In this document: positions 12,532-21,021 of the stretch, piece after piece | Layout of the letters: each line of letters begins with the position of its first letter | Numbering within the stretch: the first letter of the stretch is position 1 | DNA from: Candidatus Bathyarchaeota archaeon | Lineage (GTDB): Archaea > Thermoproteota > Bathyarchaeia > TCS64 | DNA length: 21,021 nucleotides | Assembly (NCBI GenBank): GCA_013619005.1 | Contig: JABXKY010000367.1 | Location: 1-21,021, forward strand | Direction of reading: 5' to 3' | Made by a program: the position numbers and the translations under genes | Notes under the pieces: generated by a model | Databases searched by the model: none | What the model saw: the letters and a program-made list of their open reading frames with translations, nothing else | Told to the model about the DNA's origin: nothing

Positions 12532-12553
12532 CATATGACCCACACATCATATG
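12532..12553 (+). promoter_or_regulatory. Perfect inverted repeat over the start site: likely ArsR operator
   Basis: CATATGA - 8 bp - TCATATG, with perfect 7-bp arms, spans from just after the TATA box to the ATG of the ArsR-type gene. The 22-bp size and twofold symmetry suit a dimeric winged-helix repressor. Binding here would block transcription initiation, so autoregulation is the simplest reading. Confidence 0.65.
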
Positions 12554-12910
12554 ACGAAATATTCAGATAAGGTGATGATGATGAAAAAAGACCTCTCGAT
12601 AATGTGTTATGGATTCTTCTCTACCCTCTCAAACCCAACACGCCTGGCGATCATCGAGGCACTGGTTGAAACACCCATGCACGTGAACCAGATAGCCGCG
12701 GAGCTTGAGCAGGAACAAAGCATGATCTCCCACAACCTCAAACATCTGGTAAATTGCCGCTTCGTATATGTGAAGAGAGAGGGAAAGCAAAGGGTCTACT
12801 CGGTCAACCACGAGACCGTGGACCCGTTGATGAAGGTAGTCGAGAACCATCACCACAAATTCTGTTTAGATGGCGAGGCATGCCACCTCAACGTGAAAAA
12901 GGAGAAATAA
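12551..12910 (+). CDS. ArsR-family transcriptional regulator with C-terminal His/Cys cluster
   Basis: A 119-residue winged-helix protein. FFSTLSNPTRLAIIEALVE (22-40) and MHVNQIAAEL, then QEQSMISHNLKHLVNCRFVYV (55-74), form the classic ArsR DNA-binding helices, and the wing is KREGKQRVYSV. Possible metal or redox ligands are Cys19, Cys69 and a tail cluster HHHKFCLDGEACH (100-112). The ATG at 12551 fits a leaderless start; a second choice is ATG 12581, preceded by GGTGAT. The gene is followed after 3 nt by a ScdA/Ric-like hemerythrin, and GGAG inside its last codons serves that gene. It probably senses a metal, iron-sulfur damage or nitric oxide and controls its own operon. Confidence 0.85.
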   Translation: MTKYSDKVMMMKKDLSIMCYGFFSTLSNPTRLAIIEALVETPMHVNQIAAELEQEQSMISHNLKHLVNCRFVYVKREGKQRVYSVNHETVDPLMKVVENHHHKFCLDGEACHLNVKKEK

Positions 12911-12913
12911 AAA

Positions 12914-13729
12914 ATGGCGATAAACGAGTCAAGCCCCTACGAGGAGGGCATGGAGGAGTACATGAACAGGGGCATCAAGGACGTAATCACCGAGCACCCA
13001 GAGCTTGAGGCGATACTAGACGATTACGATATCGGCTGCGGGGCATGCATGGTGGGGACATGCCTCCTCAAGGACATAGTGGACGTACACGGGCTCCCAT
13101 CTGAGACCGAGCGGGCGTTGATGGGCAGGATCACCAAGGTCATCTACCCCAACGCCGAGATCGAGACCTCTGAGGACGATGGAAAGGCGCAGGCGGAGAG
13201 GACATTCGCGTACTCTCCACCGGTCCAGATACTGGTGGACGAGCACAAGCTCATCAAGCGGCTCATCGCGTTGATCCCCTGCATAACGGAGTCAATGGAC
13301 CTGACCACCGAGGACGGGAGGCAGCTAGTGTTGGACGGCGTTGACTTTATCAAGACCTACGCCGATAGCTTTCACCACGCGAAGGAGGAGGACCTGCTGT
13401 TCAAGTACTTCGATGCGGACTCCGAGATCGTCTCGGCCTTCCACGAGGACCACAGGGTCGCAAGGAACCACGTCAAGAACATCCTGGAAGGGGTGAGCGA
13501 GAAGAACAGGGCAAAGGTCGCGGAGCACCTGGGCGCTTACAACGAGCTACTGCAGGTCCACATCAAGCGGGAGGACGAGATACTGTACCCCTGGATGGAC
13601 AGGAACATCTCATCGGAGCAGGAGACCGAGCTAGCAGCGTCATTCGACGAGGTCGCTGACAGGTTCGGCGACGTCAACGAAAGGTACGAGGTCTTCGTCC
13701 AGAGGCTCGAGAAGAGCTTCCTGAATTAA
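12914..13729 (+). CDS. ScdA/Ric-like di-iron hemerythrin domain protein
   Basis: A 271-residue protein with two parts. Residues 1-75 resemble the DUF542/DUF1858 N-terminal domain of ScdA/YtfE repair proteins, with the motif IGCGACMVGTC (Cys42, Cys45, Cys50). Residues about 100-265 are a hemerythrin four-helix bundle; candidate iron ligands are His111 (DEHK), His155 and Glu159 (FHHAKEEDLLF), His177/His180 (FHEDH), His216 and Glu220 (VHIKREDEILYP). Bacterial relatives repair iron-sulfur clusters after nitric oxide or oxidative stress. Unlike YtfE (CC motif), this protein has a CxxC-x4-C pattern. GGAG 9 nt before the ATG and the ArsR neighbour point to an inducible stress operon. Confidence 0.82.
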   Translation: MAINESSPYEEGMEEYMNRGIKDVITEHPELEAILDDYDIGCGACMVGTCLLKDIVDVHGLPSETERALMGRITKVIYPNAEIETSEDDGKAQAERTFAYSPPVQILVDEHKLIKRLIALIPCITESMDLTTEDGRQLVLDGVDFIKTYADSFHHAKEEDLLFKYFDADSEIVSAFHEDHRVARNHVKNILEGVSEKNRAKVAEHLGAYNELLQVHIKREDEILYPWMDRNISSEQETELAASFDEVADRFGDVNERYEVFVQRLEKSFLN

Positions 13730-13813: not shown

Positions 13814-15097
13814 TTAGGTGACGGTGGACTTGTCGTCGCTGAACTTCTCGACGTCGCCGTCGTCGATGATGGCCTTCAGGGTCTGGGCGACCTTCCACAC
13901 GTCGTGGTAACTGACGTACAGTGGGATCGGCGCCAGTCTGATGATGTTCGGTGGACGATAGTCCGGGATAACTCCCTTAGCGACCAGCGCTTGGTTGATC
14001 CTCCATGCATCCTTGTGGAATACACCGACGTGTCCGCCCCTCCTCTTGTCCTCCCGAGGAGTCGCGATGCCGTAGTTGTACGGCTCCCCGCTGAGCATCT
14101 CATCGATAAGATACATGAGGTACTTTGTGATCTTCAGGCTTTTCTCCCTGATGTTCTCGATACCCGCCTCACGCATCATACGTAGGCTGCCCTCAATAGG
14201 AGCCGTGGATAGCATCGTGGTTGTCCCGATCTGCCAGGCAGTCGCCGACCCAGCAGAGTCGAACTCGGGCCTCATCTCGAACATGGTGCTGCGGTTGTTG
14301 CCGAACCATCCAGCCATGCCGGGCATCTCGTCCCAGTGCTTCTTGTTCACGTAGATGCTGCCGGTTGATCCCGGGCCTCCGTTCATGTATTTGTAGTTGC
14401 ACCAGAATGCGAAATCGCTGCCCCACTTACTGAAGTGGTGGGGGACAACCCCCGTGGAGTGGCTGCAGTCAAAACCGACGATGATGCCCCTCTTATGGGC
14501 TTCCTTCGTCATCCTCTCCATGTTCAGTAGCTGGCCGCTCTTGTAGTAGACGCTGGGCAGGAGAGCGAGCTGCACATCGTCGGTCATAGCCGCGATGATG
14601 TCGTCTTCCTCGATGGTCATGCCGTCTCTGCTCTTCACGAGGACCAAGTCCTCGTCTGGGTCCCCGCCCTTGAGCCTGATCTGTGCGCTCAACGCGTACA
14701 GGTCGCTGGGGAAATTCAACTCATCCGCTAGGATCTTCTTTTTCTTGCCCTCTGGCTTGTAGAAAGTCGATACCAGTGTATGCAGGTTGACGGTGGTTCC
14801 CCCCGTCACGACGCACTCGTTCTCTTCAGCTCCTACAAGCGGCGCCTGCAGGTTGCCCAGCTCGTCGGCGTAGTTGATCCACGGGATCTTGCCGCCGCCC
14901 CAGCCCTTGATACCCAGGACCTTCCACTCCTCGATGAGCCTGAGAAGCGTCCTCTCGGCGTCCTTGCTCATCAACCCGAGGCTGTTGCCATCCATGTAGA
15001 TCGAGTCTTCGAGATGGTAGAAACGGTCCTTGAACCCAGCCAGCGGGTCCTTGGCGTCCATCTCAAGCGCGAAACCCTCGCTTAGCCTAAACTCCAT
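13814..15097 (-). CDS. kynU: Kynureninase (PLP-dependent hydrolase)
   Basis: This enzyme splits kynurenine or 3-hydroxykynurenine into (hydroxy)anthranilate and alanine. The 427-residue protein is a fold-type I PLP enzyme. It shows YMDGNSLGLMSK (34-45) near the start, VVTGGTTVNLHTL (96-108), the PLP-pairing Asp210 in VGFDCSHSTG, the Schiff-base Lys236 in FWCNYKYMNGGPGS, and WFGNN. The C-terminal RPPNIIRLAPIPLYVS is typical of kynureninase and separates it from cysteine desulfurases. No tryptophan dioxygenase, formamidase or anthranilate pathway genes are in the window, so whether it serves tryptophan breakdown or NAD synthesis is open. It is 42 nt downstream of moeA but has its own TATA element. 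Confidence 0.9.
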   Translation of the reverse strand: MEFRLSEGFALEMDAKDPLAGFKDRFYHLEDSIYMDGNSLGLMSKDAERTLLRLIEEWKVLGIKGWGGGKIPWINYADELGNLQAPLVGAEENECVVTGGTTVNLHTLVSTFYKPEGKKKKILADELNFPSDLYALSAQIRLKGGDPDEDLVLVKSRDGMTIEEDDIIAAMTDDVQLALLPSVYYKSGQLLNMERMTKEAHKRGIIVGFDCSHSTGVVPHHFSKWGSDFAFWCNYKYMNGGPGSTGSIYVNKKHWDEMPGMAGWFGNNRSTMFEMRPEFDSAGSATAWQIGTTTMLSTAPIEGSLRMMREAGIENIREKSLKITKYLMYLIDEMLSGEPYNYGIATPREDKRRGGHVGVFHKDAWRINQALVAKGVIPDYRPPNIIRLAPIPLYVSYHDVWKVAQTLKAIIDDGDVEKFSDDKSTVT

Positions 15098-15139: not shown

Positions 15140-16357
15140 CTAGACGTGGAGGAGGGTTACCTCGACTACCTCGCCCTCATCGGCCTTGTTGGTGCCTATG
15201 GGCAGGATGATGAAGCCGTCGGCGTGGGTCATGCTTGTGATGTCCCCGCTCTGCTTGTAGACCCTGTAAGCCCTGCCTTCCTCGATCCTGACGGTTATGA
15301 ACTGCTCCCTGTCGCTCTTTGATATCATCTCGTGTCCCATGGGCAGCTTTACCTTGACCCAGTGCTTGGCCTCAAGCCTGGCCATCTTGCGCAACGCCGG
15401 CATCAGGTACACGTAGCTGTTGTTGAGGCAACTGGTGGGGTACCCCGGCATACCGAACATGGGGGTGCCGTCCACCTCGCCGAACAGGGTGGGCTTACCC
15501 GGCTTGGTCTTGACGCCGTGGAAGTAGACCGTCCCCATCTCCTCCATTACCTCGCTGAACAAGTCCTTGGTACCCACGCTGCTGCCGCCGCTGACGACCC
15601 AGAGGTCATGCCCGGATGCAGTAGAGAGTGACTCCTTGATTGATTCAACGGTGTCCTCCACGATCCCGCAAACGACCGCGATGCCGCCGTTGGCCTCGAT
15701 GACCGTGGCCAGCGTGTAGCTGTTGATATCATAGATCTGACCCGGCTTCAGCGCCTGCCCCTGGGGCGCTATCTCGGGGCCGCTGCTGTATATGGCGACC
15801 CTGGGCTTCCTGTAGACCTCCACCTCGATGTACCCGAGGGCCGCGAGGGCTCCTATTACCCCCGGGGTGATGGTCTCGCCTTCACTGAGCACGTGCGTCC
15901 CAGTCTTCATATCGTCCCCTGCCTCAGCCATGTTCCTCGAGGGGACCACCGGTCTCTCAATTAACACCTTCTCGCCGTCCTTCCTGGTGTACTCCACCAT
16001 CACAACGGCGTCCGCGCCGGCCGGCATTGGTGCTCCGGTAGCTATCTCAAGGCACTCGCCGTCGTTGACAGTGCCATGGAATACGCCTCCCGTGTGCTGG
16101 ACCCCGATCAGCTTCAGTACTAGGGGATTCTCCTCGGTTGCCCCCTCTGTGTCCTTGGCCTTGACGGCGTAGCCATCCATGCTCGCCCTCGGGAAAGGCG
16201 GCACATCGAACCCCGCCACCACTTCCTCGGCCAGAACCCGCCCGTTTGAATCACCGATGGGCACCTTCTCGGTTCCCTCTATTGGCTTGATGTGACTGTC
16301 AATGATCTCCAGGGCCTTGATCCTTGGGGTCAACTCCCCGAATGGCTTCATGGTCAT
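15140..16357 (-). CDS. moeA: Molybdopterin molybdenumtransferase MoeA
   Basis: This enzyme inserts molybdate or tungstate into adenylylated molybdopterin. The 405-residue protein has the family blocks PPFPRASMDGYAV (53-65), ATGAPMPAGADAVV (106-119), SGGSSVGTKD (256-265), KTKPGKPTLFG (283-293) and GMPGYPTSCL (302-311). The tail (about 330-405) is the MoeA C-terminal beta domain. I place the start at ATG 16357 because it overlaps the moaB stop as ATGA; an upstream ATG at 16375 would add six residues and a 22-nt overlap. MoeA proteins of tungsten users and molybdenum users look alike, but the adjacent tungstate importer points to tungsten. It is the last gene of the moa operon. Confidence 0.94.
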   Translation of the reverse strand: MTMKPFGELTPRIKALEIIDSHIKPIEGTEKVPIGDSNGRVLAEEVVAGFDVPPFPRASMDGYAVKAKDTEGATEENPLVLKLIGVQHTGGVFHGTVNDGECLEIATGAPMPAGADAVVMVEYTRKDGEKVLIERPVVPSRNMAEAGDDMKTGTHVLSEGETITPGVIGALAALGYIEVEVYRKPRVAIYSSGPEIAPQGQALKPGQIYDINSYTLATVIEANGGIAVVCGIVEDTVESIKESLSTASGHDLWVVSGGSSVGTKDLFSEVMEEMGTVYFHGVKTKPGKPTLFGEVDGTPMFGMPGYPTSCLNNSYVYLMPALRKMARLEAKHWVKVKLPMGHEMISKSDREQFITVRIEEGRAYRVYKQSGDITSMTHADGFIILPIGTNKADEGEVVEVTLLHV

Positions 16358-16860
16358 CTTCTGTTCAGCTCCCATAGCATGTGCCCGACTCCCGGCAGTA
16401 TGATCTCGTTTAACGCGGTCCTCATGGCCCCCCTGCTGCCGGGGAGGCAGAACATGATCTTCTTGTTGACTATCCCGGCTGTTGAACGGCTCATCAACCC
16501 AGCCGTGCCCACCTCCTCGTAGCTGAGCCTCCTGAAGTGCTCCCCGAAGCCGGGCAGCTCCTTCTCGAACAAGCCCCTAGCGGTGTCAACGGTCTTGTCC
16601 ACGGAGCCTATTCCCGTGCCTCCGCTGGTGATGATGATCTGGGTCTCGCTGTTCTCGATAACATCCTTGAGCCAGTCTTTGATTTTGCCTGAGTCATTCG
16701 GTACGATCCCATACTCGGATACGAGGTGCCCTGCCTCCGATAGTAGCTTCTTTGCCAGTTTTCCCGTCTCATCCGTCTCAGGGGTCCTTGAGTCGCTTGT
16801 CACCAGCAGTGCGAAGGATGTGCTCACCTTCTGGTCCCGCGGGTGGTGGTCGTGGTTCAC
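16354..16860 (-). CDS. moaB: MoaB/Mog family molybdopterin adenylyltransferase
   Basis: This protein activates molybdopterin by adenylylation before metal insertion; archaeal MoaB does this job. The 168-residue protein has LLVTSDSRT (18-26), IITSGGTGIGSVD (76-88), the substrate-binding motif of the family, and FCLPGSRGAMRTAL (137-150). I place the start at GTG 16858-16860, which overlaps the moaC stop as GTGA. The open frame extends upstream to an ATG at 17034, but that extension is a shifted reading of moaC (rich in His, Gly and Arg) and is not protein-like. It is flanked by moaC and moeA, with coupling at both ends. Confidence 0.93.
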   Translation of the reverse strand: MNHDHHPRDQKVSTSFALLVTSDSRTPETDETGKLAKKLLSEAGHLVSEYGIVPNDSGKIKDWLKDVIENSETQIIITSGGTGIGSVDKTVDTARGLFEKELPGFGEHFRRLSYEEVGTAGLMSRSTAGIVNKKIMFCLPGSRGAMRTALNEIILPGVGHMLWELNRR

Positions 16861-17306
16861 TTGCCCTTCACCTTCTCGATGACCCTGATGTCGGTGATGA
16901 CGGTGTCCGGGTACTGGCCGTCCTCGTCCTTCTCCAGGTACTTTGTCATGTCCCAGATGTTGAGTAGCGTCACAGTCACCCCGGCGAGGGCCTCCATCTC
17001 CACGCCCGTCCTGGCGTGAGTGGTCACCGTGCACCTTGCCTCAATCGTGGTCTCGCCCAGCGTGTACTCGACATGGGCCTTCCCTATGGGGATGTTGTGG
17101 CACAGCGGGATCAAGTCCGGGGTGTTCTTCACCGCTAGAATCGCGGCTATCTCACCCACCGTCAACGGGTCTCCCTTCTTGATCTCCCCTTTCCTGATGG
17201 CATCAACTGTGGATGCCTTGAGCCTGATTACTCCCGTGGCTACCGCCTTACGGGCTACCGTCTCCTTCCCGGAGACGTCTATCATCTTTATCGGGTCCTC
17301 ACTCAC
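16857..17306 (-). CDS. moaC: Cyclic pyranopterin monophosphate synthase MoaC
   Basis: This enzyme converts the MoaA product to cyclic pyranopterin monophosphate. The 149-residue protein is full length. It shows KMIDVSGKETVARKAVA (7-23), DLIPLCHNIPIG (64-75), TGVEMEALAGV (100-110) and NIWDMTKYLEK (116-126), which contain the conserved His, Glu, Asp and Lys of the active site. The start is GTG at 17304-17306, preceded by a strong GGAGG 9 nt upstream, and it overlaps moaE by 8 nt. Confidence 0.96.
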   Translation of the reverse strand: MSEDPIKMIDVSGKETVARKAVATGVIRLKASTVDAIRKGEIKKGDPLTVGEIAAILAVKNTPDLIPLCHNIPIGKAHVEYTLGETTIEARCTVTTHARTGVEMEALAGVTVTLLNIWDMTKYLEKDEDGQYPDTVITDIRVIEKVKGK

Positions 17307-17715
17307 GTTTCTCTCCCTCCACCCAGAACTCGCCGTCGGGTGTAATCTCCTTCTTCCATATGGGCACGCGCTGCTTGAGCTCGTCTATGAAGTACTGGCA
17401 CGCCGTGAAGGCCTCCTTCCTGTGCCCCGCTGATATTGCTATGAACACGATCTCGTCACCAACAACCAGATCACCGTACCTGTGAACGATGGCCACCTCG
17501 TGGACGCCGAACTTGTCGATGCACTCCCGTCTGATGTCCTCCAGCTGCTTCCTGGCCATCTCCTCGAAGACCTGGATGCTCATGGTGGCCACCTGCTTGC
17601 CCTCGCTGTTGTCCCTGACTGTTCCCAGGAACTCCACGACGCAGCCGCTGGCCGGCGTCTTGACCATCTCAAGGATGGCTGCCTTGTCCGCTTCTTCTCT
17701 CTGTATCCAGATCAT
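17299..17715 (-). CDS. moaE: Molybdopterin synthase catalytic subunit MoaE
   Basis: This is the large subunit of molybdopterin synthase, which uses the thiocarboxylate of MoaD to add the dithiolene sulfurs. The 138-residue protein shows EFLGTVRDNSEG (28-39), HRYGDLVVGDEIVFI (78-92), SAGHRKEAFTAC (95-106) and DELKQRVPIWKKE (111-123), with the catalytic-type Lys114 and Lys121. The ATG at 17715 follows the moaD TAA by one base and has GGTGG just upstream. A GTG at 17724 would add three residues and overlap moaD by 8 nt. Confidence 0.95.
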   Translation of the reverse strand: MIWIQREEADKAAILEMVKTPASGCVVEFLGTVRDNSEGKQVATMSIQVFEEMARKQLEDIRRECIDKFGVHEVAIVHRYGDLVVGDEIVFIAISAGHRKEAFTACQYFIDELKQRVPIWKKEITPDGEFWVEGEKRE

Positions 17716-17716
17716 A

Positions 17717-17959
17717 TTAACCACCGCTCACCGGTGGGAAGAACGCCACCTTGTCATCCTGCTTAACCACTGTCTCTAGAGGAGCGAACGAGTTGTTGAT
17801 GGCCACAAGGATCTCCCTCTTCTCCGCTATCCTTGGGTACTTTTCCCTTACCTGGTCCCTGAGTTCAACGACGGTTATCCCGACTTTTGCCTCTATTTCC
17901 TCTTCGTTCAGGCCTGTGATGTCCCTGAACTGACCGTAATACGTTACCTTAATCCTCAC
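17717..17959 (-). CDS. moaD: Molybdopterin synthase sulfur carrier subunit MoaD
   Basis: A ubiquitin-like sulfur carrier of 80 residues that ends in PPVSGG, the Gly-Gly tail that is adenylylated and thiocarboxylated. The beta-grasp pattern is clear (MRIKVTYYGQFRDITG at the start, DDKVAFFPPVSGG at the end). The GTG start overlaps the moaA stop as GTGA. The activating E1-like enzyme (MoeB/HesA type) is not in the window and must be encoded elsewhere. Confidence 0.94.
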   Translation of the reverse strand: MRIKVTYYGQFRDITGLNEEEIEAKVGITVVELRDQVREKYPRIAEKREILVAINNSFAPLETVVKQDDKVAFFPPVSGG

Positions 17960-18876
17960 TCATCGTCCCTCCAGAAGGGGACCCGCCTCTCCACGGCCTC
18001 CTTGAACGCATCAAGGATCTCTTCCTCTGATGCCCCGCTCCTCATCAGCGACACGAATGGGACATGGTTGTCGTCCCTCATTAAACATGACTTTAGCTTG
18101 CCGTCGCTGGTTACCCTGATCCTTGTGCAGTAGGCGCAGAACTTGCTGTTGTGCATGGGCCTCACCACTTCCACCCGTGCCCCGTCCCTCAGGTGGTATA
18201 TCTTCCTGAGGTGCATCTCCCGCTCCACCACCCTCCCGGAGCGCCTCTCAAGCTCCTCCTCCACCGGCACCAGATCATAGTGGTACGAGTCGTAGTGCTC
18301 CACGCCGTCCTCAAGCTCCTGGAACTCAATGAGCTGCAACACACCTCCCACCTCCCTGCTGTAATCGATGAGGCTGTCGATCTCCTCGTGGTTGATGCCC
18401 TTCATGACCACCATGTTCAGCTTCACCGGGTTCAAACCGCACCTGACGGCCTCCTCTATCCCCGCCGTCACCGAGGCAGTACCGTTCCCCGTGATCTCCT
18501 CGAAGGACTCCGGGCACAGGGTGTGGAGGCTGACGTTCACCCGGGCCAGCCCCGCTTCCCTGAGGGGGCATGCAAGCTCCTCAAGCCTGCTCGCGTTGGT
18601 GGTCATGGAGACCTCCTTCACGAGTGGGCTGATTCGCCTTACAATCTCGACAATATCGTCGCGGATCAGAGGCTCCCCGCCGGTTAACTTGACCTTGGTT
18701 ATTCCCTGTTCCGCGGCCAGCTTGACTATCCTCTCGACCTCGTCGACGGTAAGCTCGTCCCCTGAGCCGTGCTCGCCCTCGTGGTGGCAGAAGAAGCAGT
18801 TGAAGTTGCATCTCTGGGTCAGGCTGATCCTGAGGCTGTTGATGGGCCTTCCGTAGGGGTCAACTAGTGTGGTCAC
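17956..18876 (-). CDS. moaA: GTP 3',8-cyclase MoaA (radical SAM)
   Basis: This enzyme carries out the first step of molybdopterin synthesis from GTP, with two 4Fe-4S clusters. The 306-residue protein has the radical-SAM motif Cys23-x3-Cys27-x2-Cys30 (RCNFNCFFC), KLTGGEPLIRDD (63-74, SAM binding), NVSLHTL and the second cluster Cys247/Cys250/Cys264 (FCAYCTRIRVTSDGKLKSC). Bacterial MoaA ends in Gly-Gly; this one ends in FWRDDE, as in other archaeal forms. The start is GTG at 18874-18876 with a weak GAGG upstream. It is the first gene of the moaA-D-E-C-B-moeA operon and is divergent from tupA. Confidence 0.95.
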   Translation of the reverse strand: MTTLVDPYGRPINSLRISLTQRCNFNCFFCHHEGEHGSGDELTVDEVERIVKLAAEQGITKVKLTGGEPLIRDDIVEIVRRISPLVKEVSMTTNASRLEELACPLREAGLARVNVSLHTLCPESFEEITGNGTASVTAGIEEAVRCGLNPVKLNMVVMKGINHEEIDSLIDYSREVGGVLQLIEFQELEDGVEHYDSYHYDLVPVEEELERRSGRVVEREMHLRKIYHLRDGARVEVVRPMHNSKFCAYCTRIRVTSDGKLKSCLMRDDNHVPFVSLMRSGASEEEILDAFKEAVERRVPFWRDDE

Positions 18877-18910
18877 TTTTGGGGTCGCCTCTCTTTTGAT
18901 GTGCTCTGGG

Positions 18911-18920
18911 TTTTATATTG
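18911..18920 (-). promoter_or_regulatory. TATA box of the moa operon
   Basis: CAATATAAAA on the minus strand, identical to the element at 7959-7968. It would start transcription about 12 nt before the moaA GTG. Fifteen bp separate it from the inverted repeat on its upstream side, so a bound regulator could affect it. Confidence 0.55.
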
Positions 18921-18935
18921 TTATGCATGGCTGCA

Positions 18936-18956
18936 CATATCGAACCCCTCGATATG
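18936..18956. promoter_or_regulatory. Perfect 21-bp inverted repeat between moa and tup promoters (likely metal-regulator operator)
   Basis: CATATCGA - ACCCC - TCGATATG has perfect 8-bp arms and a 5-bp spacer. It lies between the moaA TATA box (18911-18920) and the tupA TATA-like box (18957-18964), directly touching the latter. A further CATATC half-site is at 18967-18972, 31 bp from the first arm, about three helical turns. The position suits one dimeric regulator, of ModE/TunR-like or DtxR-like type, controlling both operons. Confidence 0.65.
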
Positions 18957-18964
18957 TATAAATA
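18957..18964 (+). promoter_or_regulatory. TATA-like box of the tup operon
   Basis: TATAAATA on the plus strand, 39 nt before the tupA ATG. Initiation about 26 nt downstream falls close to the GGAGGT at 18984-18989, so the true start may lie a little upstream. Alternatively the TTTTATATTG element at 18911 drives both directions. Confidence 0.45.
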
Positions 18965-18995
18965 AACATATCATGTCTTTGATGGAGGTACTCGT

Positions 18996-20003
18996 ATGTT
19001 AGGGTTCAAAATCAACCAAACAAGGTTTGCCATAGCCCTCGTCCTCGGGTTAGTCATCACCGGGGGCCTACTCAGGGTGGCAACGAGGCCCATCCCCACG
19101 CCCCCACTGATCATTTCAACCACCACGAGCCTATATGAGACGGGGCTACTCGACGAACTGAAGGAAAGTTTCGAGTCAGAAACCCCCGGAGCAACGGTTC
19201 TCTTCATCTCACAGGGGACGGGTCTCGCCATCGAGACAGCAAGGCGGGGCGACGCGGATATGATACTGGTTCACAGCCCATCCCAGGAGAAGGGTTTCAT
19301 TGAGAGCGGGCACGGGGTGAACCGCAAGGTGATCGCGTACAACTACTTCATCATCGTGGCCCCCGAATCGGACCCAGCGGGCATCAGTGGCCTAAACCCC
19401 CTTGATGCGCTGCTCAAACTGCAAGAGGAAGGCATGAACGGCAACGCTGTCTGGGTGAGCCGGGGCGATAACTCGGGCACCCACTCCAAGGAAAAGGGCC
19501 TATGGGGGGCCGCTGGGCTCGACTTGGACGAGATAACTGCACAGGAGTCCCCTGTCATGGGTGCGCCTTGGTACATCGAGGCGGGTGCTGGCATGACGGC
19601 AACGCTCCAGCTGGCCAACGAGAAGGACGCGTACACGCTCACCGACATGGCCACGTACCTCAAGAACCACGAGAACGGGAACATCGAACTCGTGAAGGTG
19701 GTGGACTCGGGTATGGAGACGCTGAACGTGTACAGCGCCATACTCTGCAACCCGGAGGTCAACCCCGACACAAACTATGATGTAGCCCTTGATTTCATCA
19801 GTTTCCTCCTCACCGACGAGGTCCAGGACCTGCTGGAAGTCTATGGGGCCGAGGAGTATGGGTCGACGCTGTTCAAGCCGTGGCTGCCCGAGCTGGAGAA
19901 CTCCGACTCTGAGATAGTTCAATGGGTCGAGGAGTACGCCTTCATCGAGGGCACCGAGTGCCCCGAGATATACCGGTACCAAAGTGGGGACTTATACGGA
20001 TAA
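18996..20003 (+). CDS. tupA: Tungstate ABC transporter substrate-binding protein TupA
   Basis: This is the extracellular, membrane-anchored binding protein that captures tungstate. The 335-residue protein begins with a short basic stretch and one hydrophobic helix (11-28, FAIALVLGLVITGGLLRV), likely a membrane anchor because no lipobox Cys is present. TupA hallmarks follow: STTTSLYETGLLDEL (41-55, with the oxyanion-binding TTTS), SQGTGLAIETARRGDADMILVH, WVSRGDNSGTHSKE (153-166) and PWYIEAGAGM (191-200). The ATG has a strong GGAGGT 6 nt upstream. TupA-type sequence indicates tungstate over molybdate, although some members bind both. It is divergent from the moa operon across a shared operator. 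Confidence 0.93.
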   Translation: MLGFKINQTRFAIALVLGLVITGGLLRVATRPIPTPPLIISTTTSLYETGLLDELKESFESETPGATVLFISQGTGLAIETARRGDADMILVHSPSQEKGFIESGHGVNRKVIAYNYFIIVAPESDPAGISGLNPLDALLKLQEEGMNGNAVWVSRGDNSGTHSKEKGLWGAAGLDLDEITAQESPVMGAPWYIEAGAGMTATLQLANEKDAYTLTDMATYLKNHENGNIELVKVVDSGMETLNVYSAILCNPEVNPDTNYDVALDFISFLLTDEVQDLLEVYGAEEYGSTLFKPWLPELENSDSEIVQWVEEYAFIEGTECPEIYRYQSGDLYG

Positions 20004-20020
20004 ACGGAGTCAATGATGCC

Positions 20021-20722
20021 ATGAGCTGGAACGCGATAACAGATGGGCTGGGTGAGGCCGTCAGGCTAATACTGACCCTTGATTCCACAGTTTTTCAGAT
20101 CACTCTTAGATCTCTTGAGACCGCGGGCTTGGCCACGTTGATTGCGACCCTCATAGGTCTACCATTAAGCGTCGTCATCACGATGAAGGATTTCCCGGGC
20201 AGGGATACGCTGAAGTTCCTTTTCAACGCCCTAGTCGGCATCCCCACCGTCACTCTGGGCCTGTTTCTTTACATGGTCATGGCTCGGAGCGGTCCGTTGG
20301 GGGCGTTCAACCTTCTATACACAGTTCAGGGCGTCGCCATCGGCCAGGCTTTTCTTATCCTACCGATAACCGTCACGTTCATAGTGAGCGCCATCGAGAG
20401 CAAGGGCTACGAGGTGAGGGACCTCGTGAGAACACTGGGGGCATCGGAGCTTCAGGCAGCGGTAGCTGTGCTTAGAGAGTCCTACGGTGGGGTCAGCTTG
20501 GCCATCATCTCCAGCTTCAACAGGGCTTTCGCGGAGCTGGGGATAGTGACCATGCTTGGCGCTAACATCCGCGGTGTTACCCGCGTTCTGACCACCGCCA
20601 TAGCACTTGAGACCAACAAAGGCCAGTTCGGGCTCAGCTTCGCGTTGAGCTTCGTTCTCCTCTTCGTGGTTTTCCTTCTCAACTATGTCATTCGCGTCTT
20701 GCAGGGAGGGGACCAGACATGA
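20021..20722 (+). CDS. tupB: Tungstate ABC transporter permease TupB
   Basis: This is the membrane permease of the importer. The 233-residue protein has about five or six hydrophobic helices (around 36-54, 66-88, 102-124, 158-178 and 206-226). The cytoplasmic EAA-like loop that contacts the ATPase is EVRDLVRTLGASELQAAVAVL (131-151). I place the start at ATG 20021 (MSWNAITDGL), 17 nt after tupA and with GGAG 11 nt upstream. The frame stays open to an ATG at 19922, but that part overlaps tupA out of frame and is Arg/His-rich. The stop overlaps tupC as ATGA. Confidence 0.93.
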   Translation: MSWNAITDGLGEAVRLILTLDSTVFQITLRSLETAGLATLIATLIGLPLSVVITMKDFPGRDTLKFLFNALVGIPTVTLGLFLYMVMARSGPLGAFNLLYTVQGVAIGQAFLILPITVTFIVSAIESKGYEVRDLVRTLGASELQAAVAVLRESYGGVSLAIISSFNRAFAELGIVTMLGANIRGVTRVLTTAIALETNKGQFGLSFALSFVLLFVVFLLNYVIRVLQGGDQT

Positions 20723-21021
20723 GTGTCCTTAGGCTAGAGGGTCTTGGAATGGTTTACGGGGAAAACCATGCCCTGAAGAACCTGAACCTATCCATAAGCC
20801 AGCGCACTCTCGGCCTGATAGGCAAGAGTGGCTCAGGGAAGACCACCCTGTTGAGGATACTTTCAGGTCTTCAATCACAGACATCGGGATCCCTGTATTT
20901 CAAAGAGGGTGAGGTCGACGAGAGCAACGTCCAGGGCCTCAGGCAAAAAGCGACCATGATTTTCCAGAACCCAAGCTTCATGCACGGTGATGTGAGGACA
21001 AACCTCGCCTACGGCCTCAGA
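20719..21021 (+). CDS. tupC: Tungstate ABC transporter ATP-binding protein TupC, N-terminal part
   Basis: The first 101 codons are in the window; the gene runs off the right edge. The frame starts at the ATG overlapping the tupB stop and shows a full Walker A motif LIGKSGSGKTTLLR (33-46) and the Q-loop IFQNPSF (81-87, Gln83). The opening MSVLRLEGLGMVYGENHALKN is typical of TupC/ModC-type ATPases. The signature motif, Walker B and any C-terminal regulatory domain lie beyond the window. Confidence 0.92.
   Translation, partial: MSVLRLEGLGMVYGENHALKNLNLSISQRTLGLIGKSGSGKTTLLRILSGLQSQTSGSLYFKEGEVDESNVQGLRQKATMIFQNPSFMHGDVRTNLAYGLR

Follow-up and report, generated by a model that had tools for sequence, protein, structure and literature searches.

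The 21,021-nt contig JABXKY010000367.1 (assembly GCA_013619005.1; C50 in our numbering) from a metagenome-assembled genome (MAG, 85% complete) of a member of the Bathyarchaeia, referred to below as the window, carries two operons head to head across a gap of 119 bp: tupA-tupB and the start of tupC for a tungstate-type importer, directed rightward, and moaA-moaD-moaE-moaC-moaB-moeA for molybdenum cofactor (Moco) synthesis, directed leftward. We found that this gap contains two 24-bp dyads, boxes A and B, which resemble the operators of the regulator ModE. Judging from sequence comparisons, a ModE-like protein probably controls both the tup and the moa operon via these two boxes.

An earlier interpretation of the window, made without database searches (the sequence-only reading), had described a perfect 8-5-8 inverted repeat between the two TATA boxes and an extra CATATC half-site next to it, and had proposed this repeat as a single operator shared by both promoters. 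The repeat, CATATCGA-N5-TCGATATG, is indeed present at 18936–18956, flanked by the TATA-like elements of moaA and tupA (Table 1), and its arms can be extended to 9-5-9. A search of the window that tolerated up to three mismatches gave this one occurrence (0.06 expected), and in the whole genome it is the sole perfect copy. The CATATC hexamer is also there (18967–18972); rather than a spare half-site, however, it is the partner of GATATG (18951–18956) across 10 nt, and GTTATG at 18920–18925, overlooked in that reading, pairs across 10 nt with the first CATATC. The motif GWTATG-N10-CATAWC occurs twice in the intergenic region (core A, 18920–18941; core B, 18951–18972), which holds two similar dyads in place of a single palindrome with a half-site left over. 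The 8-5-8 repeat consists of the right arm of box A and, facing it, the left arm of box B. The spacing of the dyad CGnTATATA-N6-TATATAnCG, 24 bp from CG to CG, is identical in the two boxes; box A abuts the TFB-recognition element (BRE) and TATA box of moaA, and box B contains the TATA box of tupA.

The Escherichia coli ModE consensus, ATCGNTATATA-N6-TATATANCGAT (PMC545781; a variant of the same element is printed in PMC2700814), was slid untrained over 20,994 positions of the window. Box A ranks first, matching 14 of the 20 specified bases, and box B is joint second with 13, in a tie with one other site; the centre of the 8-5-8 repeat matches at four.

Conservation of the boxes between moaA and tupA

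Comparison of 16 distinct moaA/tupA intergenic regions from the home family showed that the core of box A is retained with at most one mismatch in 15 of them, L144 being without site A, and the core of box B in 13; L010 and L011 each have three mismatches to core B, and L021 has more than three. A symmetric matrix was built from 30 home-family sites (15 A and 15 B), which included all the sites of these regions except box B of L021; its scores range from 20.9 to 29.6 for A (15 regions) and from 14.6 to 28.0 for B (16 regions). The centres of the two boxes, in the 15 regions that have both, are 30, 31, 36, 43, 50, 52, 62, 63 or 64 bp apart. Facing 8-bp arms are perfect in only two of the 16 regions. 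By eye, seven of the 16 have complementary facing arms of 7 bp, which in two cases are about 37 bp apart; arms of this kind are expected where both are halves of adjacent boxes.

The sequence-only reading had named loss of the repeat from close relatives with the same gene order as an outcome that would count against it, and for the perfect repeat this is what the comparison returned: the 8-bp arms are gone in 14 of the 16 regions, including that of the congener G001. With the boxes kept, their spacing variable and the 8-bp arms lost, it is boxes A and B, not the 8-5-8 repeat, that look like the unit under selection. Further copies of the repeat, looked for across the genome, include no perfect one, only a site with two mismatches (C174) and eight with three, and we rejected them as a regulon.

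The placement of the boxes relative to the promoters also recurs in the relatives, as judged by eye. At moaA, the TATA-like element has box A on its upstream side; at tupA, box B is placed either on the corresponding element or immediately downstream of it. In the relatives printed, box A is followed by an AT-rich element, which is weakest in L010. In other genera box B abuts a TATA-like element, whereas here it contains the tupA TATA box.

Occurrence of the box at other genes

With this matrix we scanned the region before tupA, at most 400 bp long, in 66 of the 68 genomes with tupA (G019 and G025, in which the tupA match begins at a contig end, were excluded). Outside the home family, 36 of 49 genomes have a score of at least 15, compared with none of 2940 dinucleotide shuffles, and control stretches inside tupA of the same 66 genomes reach a maximum of 2.3. 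Among 939,475 background positions, i.e. the fetched loci minus the tupA upstream regions, there were eight matches with scores of at least 20: five are upstream of moaA in Thorarchaeota and three upstream of modE.

Boxes A and B are conserved each on its own account. Where moaA has no adjacent tup and no moaC-moaB was detected upstream, a box with a score of at least 15 was found in 10 of 12 cases (the exceptions are L233 with 14.0 and L241 with −2.7; L226 of G014, where moaA is divergent from tup, was not counted). Where moaC-moaB lie just upstream of a moaA without adjacent tup, none of 10 reaches this score, the highest being 14.8 in L245. As for tupA, modE is its divergent neighbour at a distance of up to 1.2 kb in 27 of the 66 genomes, 23 of which have a box scoring at least 15; the moaA/tupA arrangement accounts for 16 genomes, and 14 of the remaining 23, which have neither arrangement, also score at least 15. 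In Thorarchaeota, the box precedes tup in six of six loci, and moaA has a box of its own in the five loci where it was seen.

The exact box pattern was found 25 times, in 24 of the 151 genomes, compared with once for the reversed control; the window's genome is not among these 24 because each of its boxes differs from the strict pattern by one base. By our assignment, 11 of the sites belong to tupA, four to wtpA, four to an operon for an energy-coupling factor (ECF)-type transporter (see below), two to Peripla_BP_2 binding proteins and one to modE alone; one is beside a molybdopterin-domain protein, one near a PHO4 gene (L163) and one (L182) is unassigned. The box was found upstream of genes for molybdenum or tungsten uptake or Moco synthesis (tupA, moaA, wtpA) and of modE.

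Some of these loci deserve separate mention. The wtpA genes, encoding another family of tungstate-binding proteins, have the box upstream in L169, L177, L178 and L180, with modE as their divergent neighbour in L177 and L178. The Peripla_BP_2 genes have exact boxes at their starts (L171:1428-3023 and L172:1509-2558) in genomes that also encode WtpA and TupA; they possibly specify oxyanion importers of the MolA type. At L163:1501-1524 an exact box lies between a 450-aa open reading frame (ORF), which it precedes, and the 3′ end of a PHO4-family gene; at L182:1501-1524 the ORF downstream of the box matched no Pfam family.

In the window's own genome, the next best box (C131:5235, one mismatch) was rejected, being inside a 249-aa ORF, and a scan that included many two-mismatch sites gave 29 sites in total versus 16 for the reversed control. 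The genome has six matches to AFOR_N of the aldehyde ferredoxin oxidoreductase (AOR) family, which lends support to the earlier suggestion that the organism uses tungsten enzymes. As to whether copies of the operator precede AOR genes, a check proposed in that reading, among the five of six AFOR_N matches listed (two on C218 and one each on C41, C122 and C56), no contig carries a site in the box scan, and therefore AOR co-regulation is not indicated.

The probable ModE-like regulator

The class of the regulator, left open in the sequence-only reading, can be narrowed by these comparisons to ModE-like proteins. Their genes are present in 103 of the 151 genomes searched, mostly with matches below the curated score, and in 24 of the 27 home-family genomes (TIGR00637 E-values from 7e-16 to 2e-26, all under the curated cut-off). 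The proteins have an N-terminal ModE-type winged helix, with ModE structures 2ijl, 1b9m and 1o7l as relatives in the PDB. As called, 21 home-family members are 110–222 aa long, which leaves space for one TOBE domain at most; a scan of six proteins revealed one weak TOBE_2 stretch in two of them and none in four. At E ≤ 0.1, TOBE matches were seen in 20 of 43 members (best 3.7e-06) and TOBE_2 matches in 17 (best 1.8e-05), all of them weak. We call these proteins ModE-like because the two tandem TOBE domains that characterize classical ModE were not found in the home family. In the genomes compared, gene neighbourhood links the boxes to modE, and to some extent so does co-occurrence: where completeness is 90% or more, the box scores at least 15 in 33 of 38 genomes with modE versus two of seven without, and for all 66 genomes the association has p = 0.03 at this threshold.

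A number of observations weigh against assigning the boxes to a ModE-like protein. The search for modE in the window's own, 85% complete genome gave no match. Contig C98 ends at a point matching L123:2568, and modE is found about 1.6 kb further on, at L123:4131-4652, so that the gene was probably missed owing to the contig end, an explanation based on the synteny of C98 with L123. Only two of the 151 genomes exceed the curated TIGR00637 cut-off, and on its own the alignment of the C-terminal part with the second TOBE domain of E. coli ModE falls short of significance. The association between modE and the box has p = 0.13, i.e. is not significant, for all 66 genomes at a threshold of 18, and it is inflated by the relatedness of the genomes, whose counts are not independent. 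Eight genomes with both tupA and modE score below 15 upstream of tupA (G034, −5.3; G125, −4.3; G068, 1.0; G061, 4.5; G065, 10.4; G033, 11.9; G105, 12.7; G124, 14.3), and six tupA genomes without a modE match score above 15. Home-family modE genes mostly have no upstream box, L133 being the only fetched modE stretch with a site of at least 11 next to the gene. Finally, the home-family matrix scores are partly circular, since the home-family boxes trained the matrix.

Proposed mechanism and alternatives

In the proposed mechanism, a regulator with an N-terminal ModE-type winged helix and one C-terminal TOBE-like oxyanion-binding domain would bind the two 24-bp boxes, approximately CGWTATGYA-N6-TRCATAWCG, of the 119-bp moaA-tupA region, of which box B sits over the TATA box of tupA and box A over the BRE side of that of moaA. 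At high cytoplasmic levels of tungstate (or molybdate), both boxes would be occupied by the dimer in its metal-loaded form, which would hinder the TATA-binding protein (TBP) or transcription factor B (TFB) and lower tungstate uptake; in the simplest version, the moa operon would be co-repressed. We infer the binding of ModE to the boxes, the identity of its ligand as tungstate and, at moaA, the sign of regulation. The firmest prediction is that tup is repressed under metal-replete conditions, since TBP or TFB should be hindered at occupied boxes. The sequence-only reading had one metal-sensing repressor matching uptake to cofactor synthesis; a common metal-linked regulator is retained here as a likely component, and the single 8-5-8 operator is not.

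The main alternative concerns the sign of regulation and is a sub-model of the mechanism above, with which it overlaps: following the E. coli pattern, the regulator with bound metal might repress tup via box B and activate moa via box A. According to the text consulted of PMC11980592, E. coli ModE represses modABCD and activates moa; moa activation by ModE is also stated in the corresponding text of PMC2408646, which nevertheless describes modABCD as upregulated. The conserved asymmetry in the placement of the two boxes, upstream of the TATA-like element at moaA and on or downstream of it at tupA, fits such a scheme. However, the proximal arm of box A (18920–18925) overlaps the expected BRE and would leave scant space for TFB, which favours repression at moa, and we consider opposite signs possible but less likely than not to apply.

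Another regulator, e.g. a TunR/TaoR-like or DtxR-like protein, could instead read the boxes, with modE being merely a frequent neighbour. A box scoring at least 15 does occur in six of the 11 tupA genomes in which modE was not detected. Yet four of these six are less than 90% complete, and in G059 the tup contig stops 0.9 kb past tupA, on the downstream side, where the congeners G115 and G119 carry modE; only G120 is left unexplained by either completeness or a contig end. The boxes also fit the published ModE consensus, and we regard a regulator of another class as improbable, although the regulator search was aimed at ModE-like genes and not at TunR or TaoR. A single dimer on the 8-5-8 palindrome serving both promoters, an idea that drew on the perfection and central position of the repeat, is very hard to reconcile with arms that are perfect in so few of the intergenic regions, box centres 30–64 bp apart in 15 of them and a ModE match of four bases out of 20 at the repeat centre, and it was rejected.

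A candidate ECF-type importer

One genus, g35 (G063, G085, G127 and G070), stands apart: it has ModE, and no TupA (E ≤ 1e-20), WtpA or ModA was detected in it. Here the exact box stands in front of an ECF-type transporter gene matching PF09819, which occurs in four of four g35 genomes and in none of the four others tried. In G070, genes for two Oxidored_molyb proteins come next, then those for two ABC ATPases and CbiQ, and a MobB-like gene is convergent with this run. In G063, for which 9 kb were read, two Oxidored_molyb proteins are encoded after the PF09819 gene and a MobB-like gene lies farther along, so that molybdopterin-domain proteins follow the PF09819 gene in both g35 operons read (G063 and G070). 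The operon could encode an ECF importer for molybdate, tungstate or a pterin cofactor. We tentatively suggest, as a possibility that is still speculative, a tungsten-tuned ModE-like regulon extending across Bathyarchaeia and Asgard archaea (Thorarchaeota), the boxes of which would expose an importer class not described before.

Genes of the locus

Gene calls and profile matches (Table 1) bear out the head-to-head order of tupABC and moaA-D-E-C-B-moeA described in the sequence-only reading, with tupC partial. TupA has its closest named relatives in Bathyarchaeota MAGs and, in the PDB, 5my5 (E = 1.2e-45) and 3lr1, named as tungstate-binding (E = 3.3e-40); its score falls short of the curated equivalog cut-off of 400 bits, and we infer that its ligand is tungstate and not molybdate. 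TupB also scores 156 bits with the TupB model NF041773, below the cut-off of 320. The listed start of the moaB-like gene overlaps moaC, and the real start is probably further inside.

Table 1. Predicted operators, promoter elements and genes of the moaA-tupA locus, and boxes preceding PF09819 genes in genus g35
Feature	Position	Strand	Basis
Box A, predicted ModE-type operator	18919-18942	.	core GTTATG-N10-CATATC 18920-18941, 0 mismatches
Box B, predicted ModE-type operator	18950-18973	.	core GATATG-N10-CATATC 18951-18972, 0 mismatches
moaA TATA-like element	18911-18918	-	TTTTATAT forward, ATATAAAA on - strand; from sequence
tupA TATA-like element	18957-18964	+	TATAAATA; inside box B; from sequence
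moeA	15140-16375	-	PF03453, PF00994 and PF03454, each above gathering score
moaB-like MoCF protein	16354-17034	-	PF00994 E=1.5e-28
moaC	16857-17306	-	NF008999 207 bits, cut-off 171
moaE	17299-17724	-	PF02391 E=5.5e-36
moaD	17717-17959	-	TIGR01682 67.2 bits, cut-off 66.15
moaA, GTP 3',8-cyclase	17956-18876	-	TIGR02668 381 bits, cut-off 325.25
tupA, tungstate-type binding protein	18996-20003	+	NF041772 168 bits; PDB relatives
tupB, permease	19922-20722	+	NF038017 181 bits, above cut-off
tupC, ATPase	20719-21021	+	PF00005 E=2.8e-14; first 101 codons, 3' part beyond contig end
Locus with box before PF09819 gene	L249:740-5902; L247:838-4446; L166; L167		PF00174 proteins follow in L249 and L247; L249 also with two ABC ATPases, CbiQ and a convergent MobB-like gene

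Beyond moeA, the window carries a kynureninase-family gene (13814–15097); the order kynU-moeA-...-moaA-tupA is also found in L035, with a KynU identity of 75%. The stretch 12551–13729 contains an ArsR-type helix-turn-helix gene followed by one for a hemerythrin-domain protein. A scan of the window against Rfam gave no family at its gathering score, and an RNA element was rejected on this ground.

Relation to known systems and significance

The system resembles the E. coli ModE regulon (modABCD, moaABCDE) in the 24-bp dyad geometry, in most of the bases and in having transporter and Moco-synthesis targets. It differs in that the transporter is a tungstate-type (Tup) importer, that both boxes would act at one bidirectional archaeal promoter, on its TATA and BRE elements, and that the size of the regulator allows for one TOBE domain instead of two. 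Going by the title of Studholme and Pau (2003) in the reference list of PMC545781, an archaeal ModE element had been described earlier, and ModE control of modABC in Methanosarcinales is mentioned in PMC9765008. The excerpt used of PMC11980592 proposes, from domain architecture, a tungsten role for single-TOBE TudE/ModE-like regulators of gut microbes. The proteins described here appear to fit that architecture, a helix-turn-helix plus one TOBE domain with a predicted tungsten role, rather than classical ModE; compared with that excerpt, the present work adds candidate operators and targets in Bathyarchaeia and the same box in Thorarchaeota. In the bacterium Geobacter, tup is found alongside Moco genes and ModE sites decay after ModE loss (PMC2700814), which resembles some of the modE-less genomes here; a shared divergent promoter does not figure in the portion of that account available to us. 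None of the titles listed by the literature searches dealt with tup/moa operators in Bathyarchaeia.

The comparison corrects the position of the operator relative to the sequence-only reading and provides a likely regulator class and exact predicted operators for tungsten homeostasis in a large, uncultured class of archaea. The motif is specific enough to be used in MAGs for locating tungsten and molybdenum genes, among them those of a candidate new type of importer. It also raises a testable question, namely whether the position of a ModE box, on the BRE or on the TATA box, sets the sign of regulation at an archaeal promoter. In this uncultured archaeon, the arrangement suggests that one sensor sets both tungsten import and cofactor synthesis.

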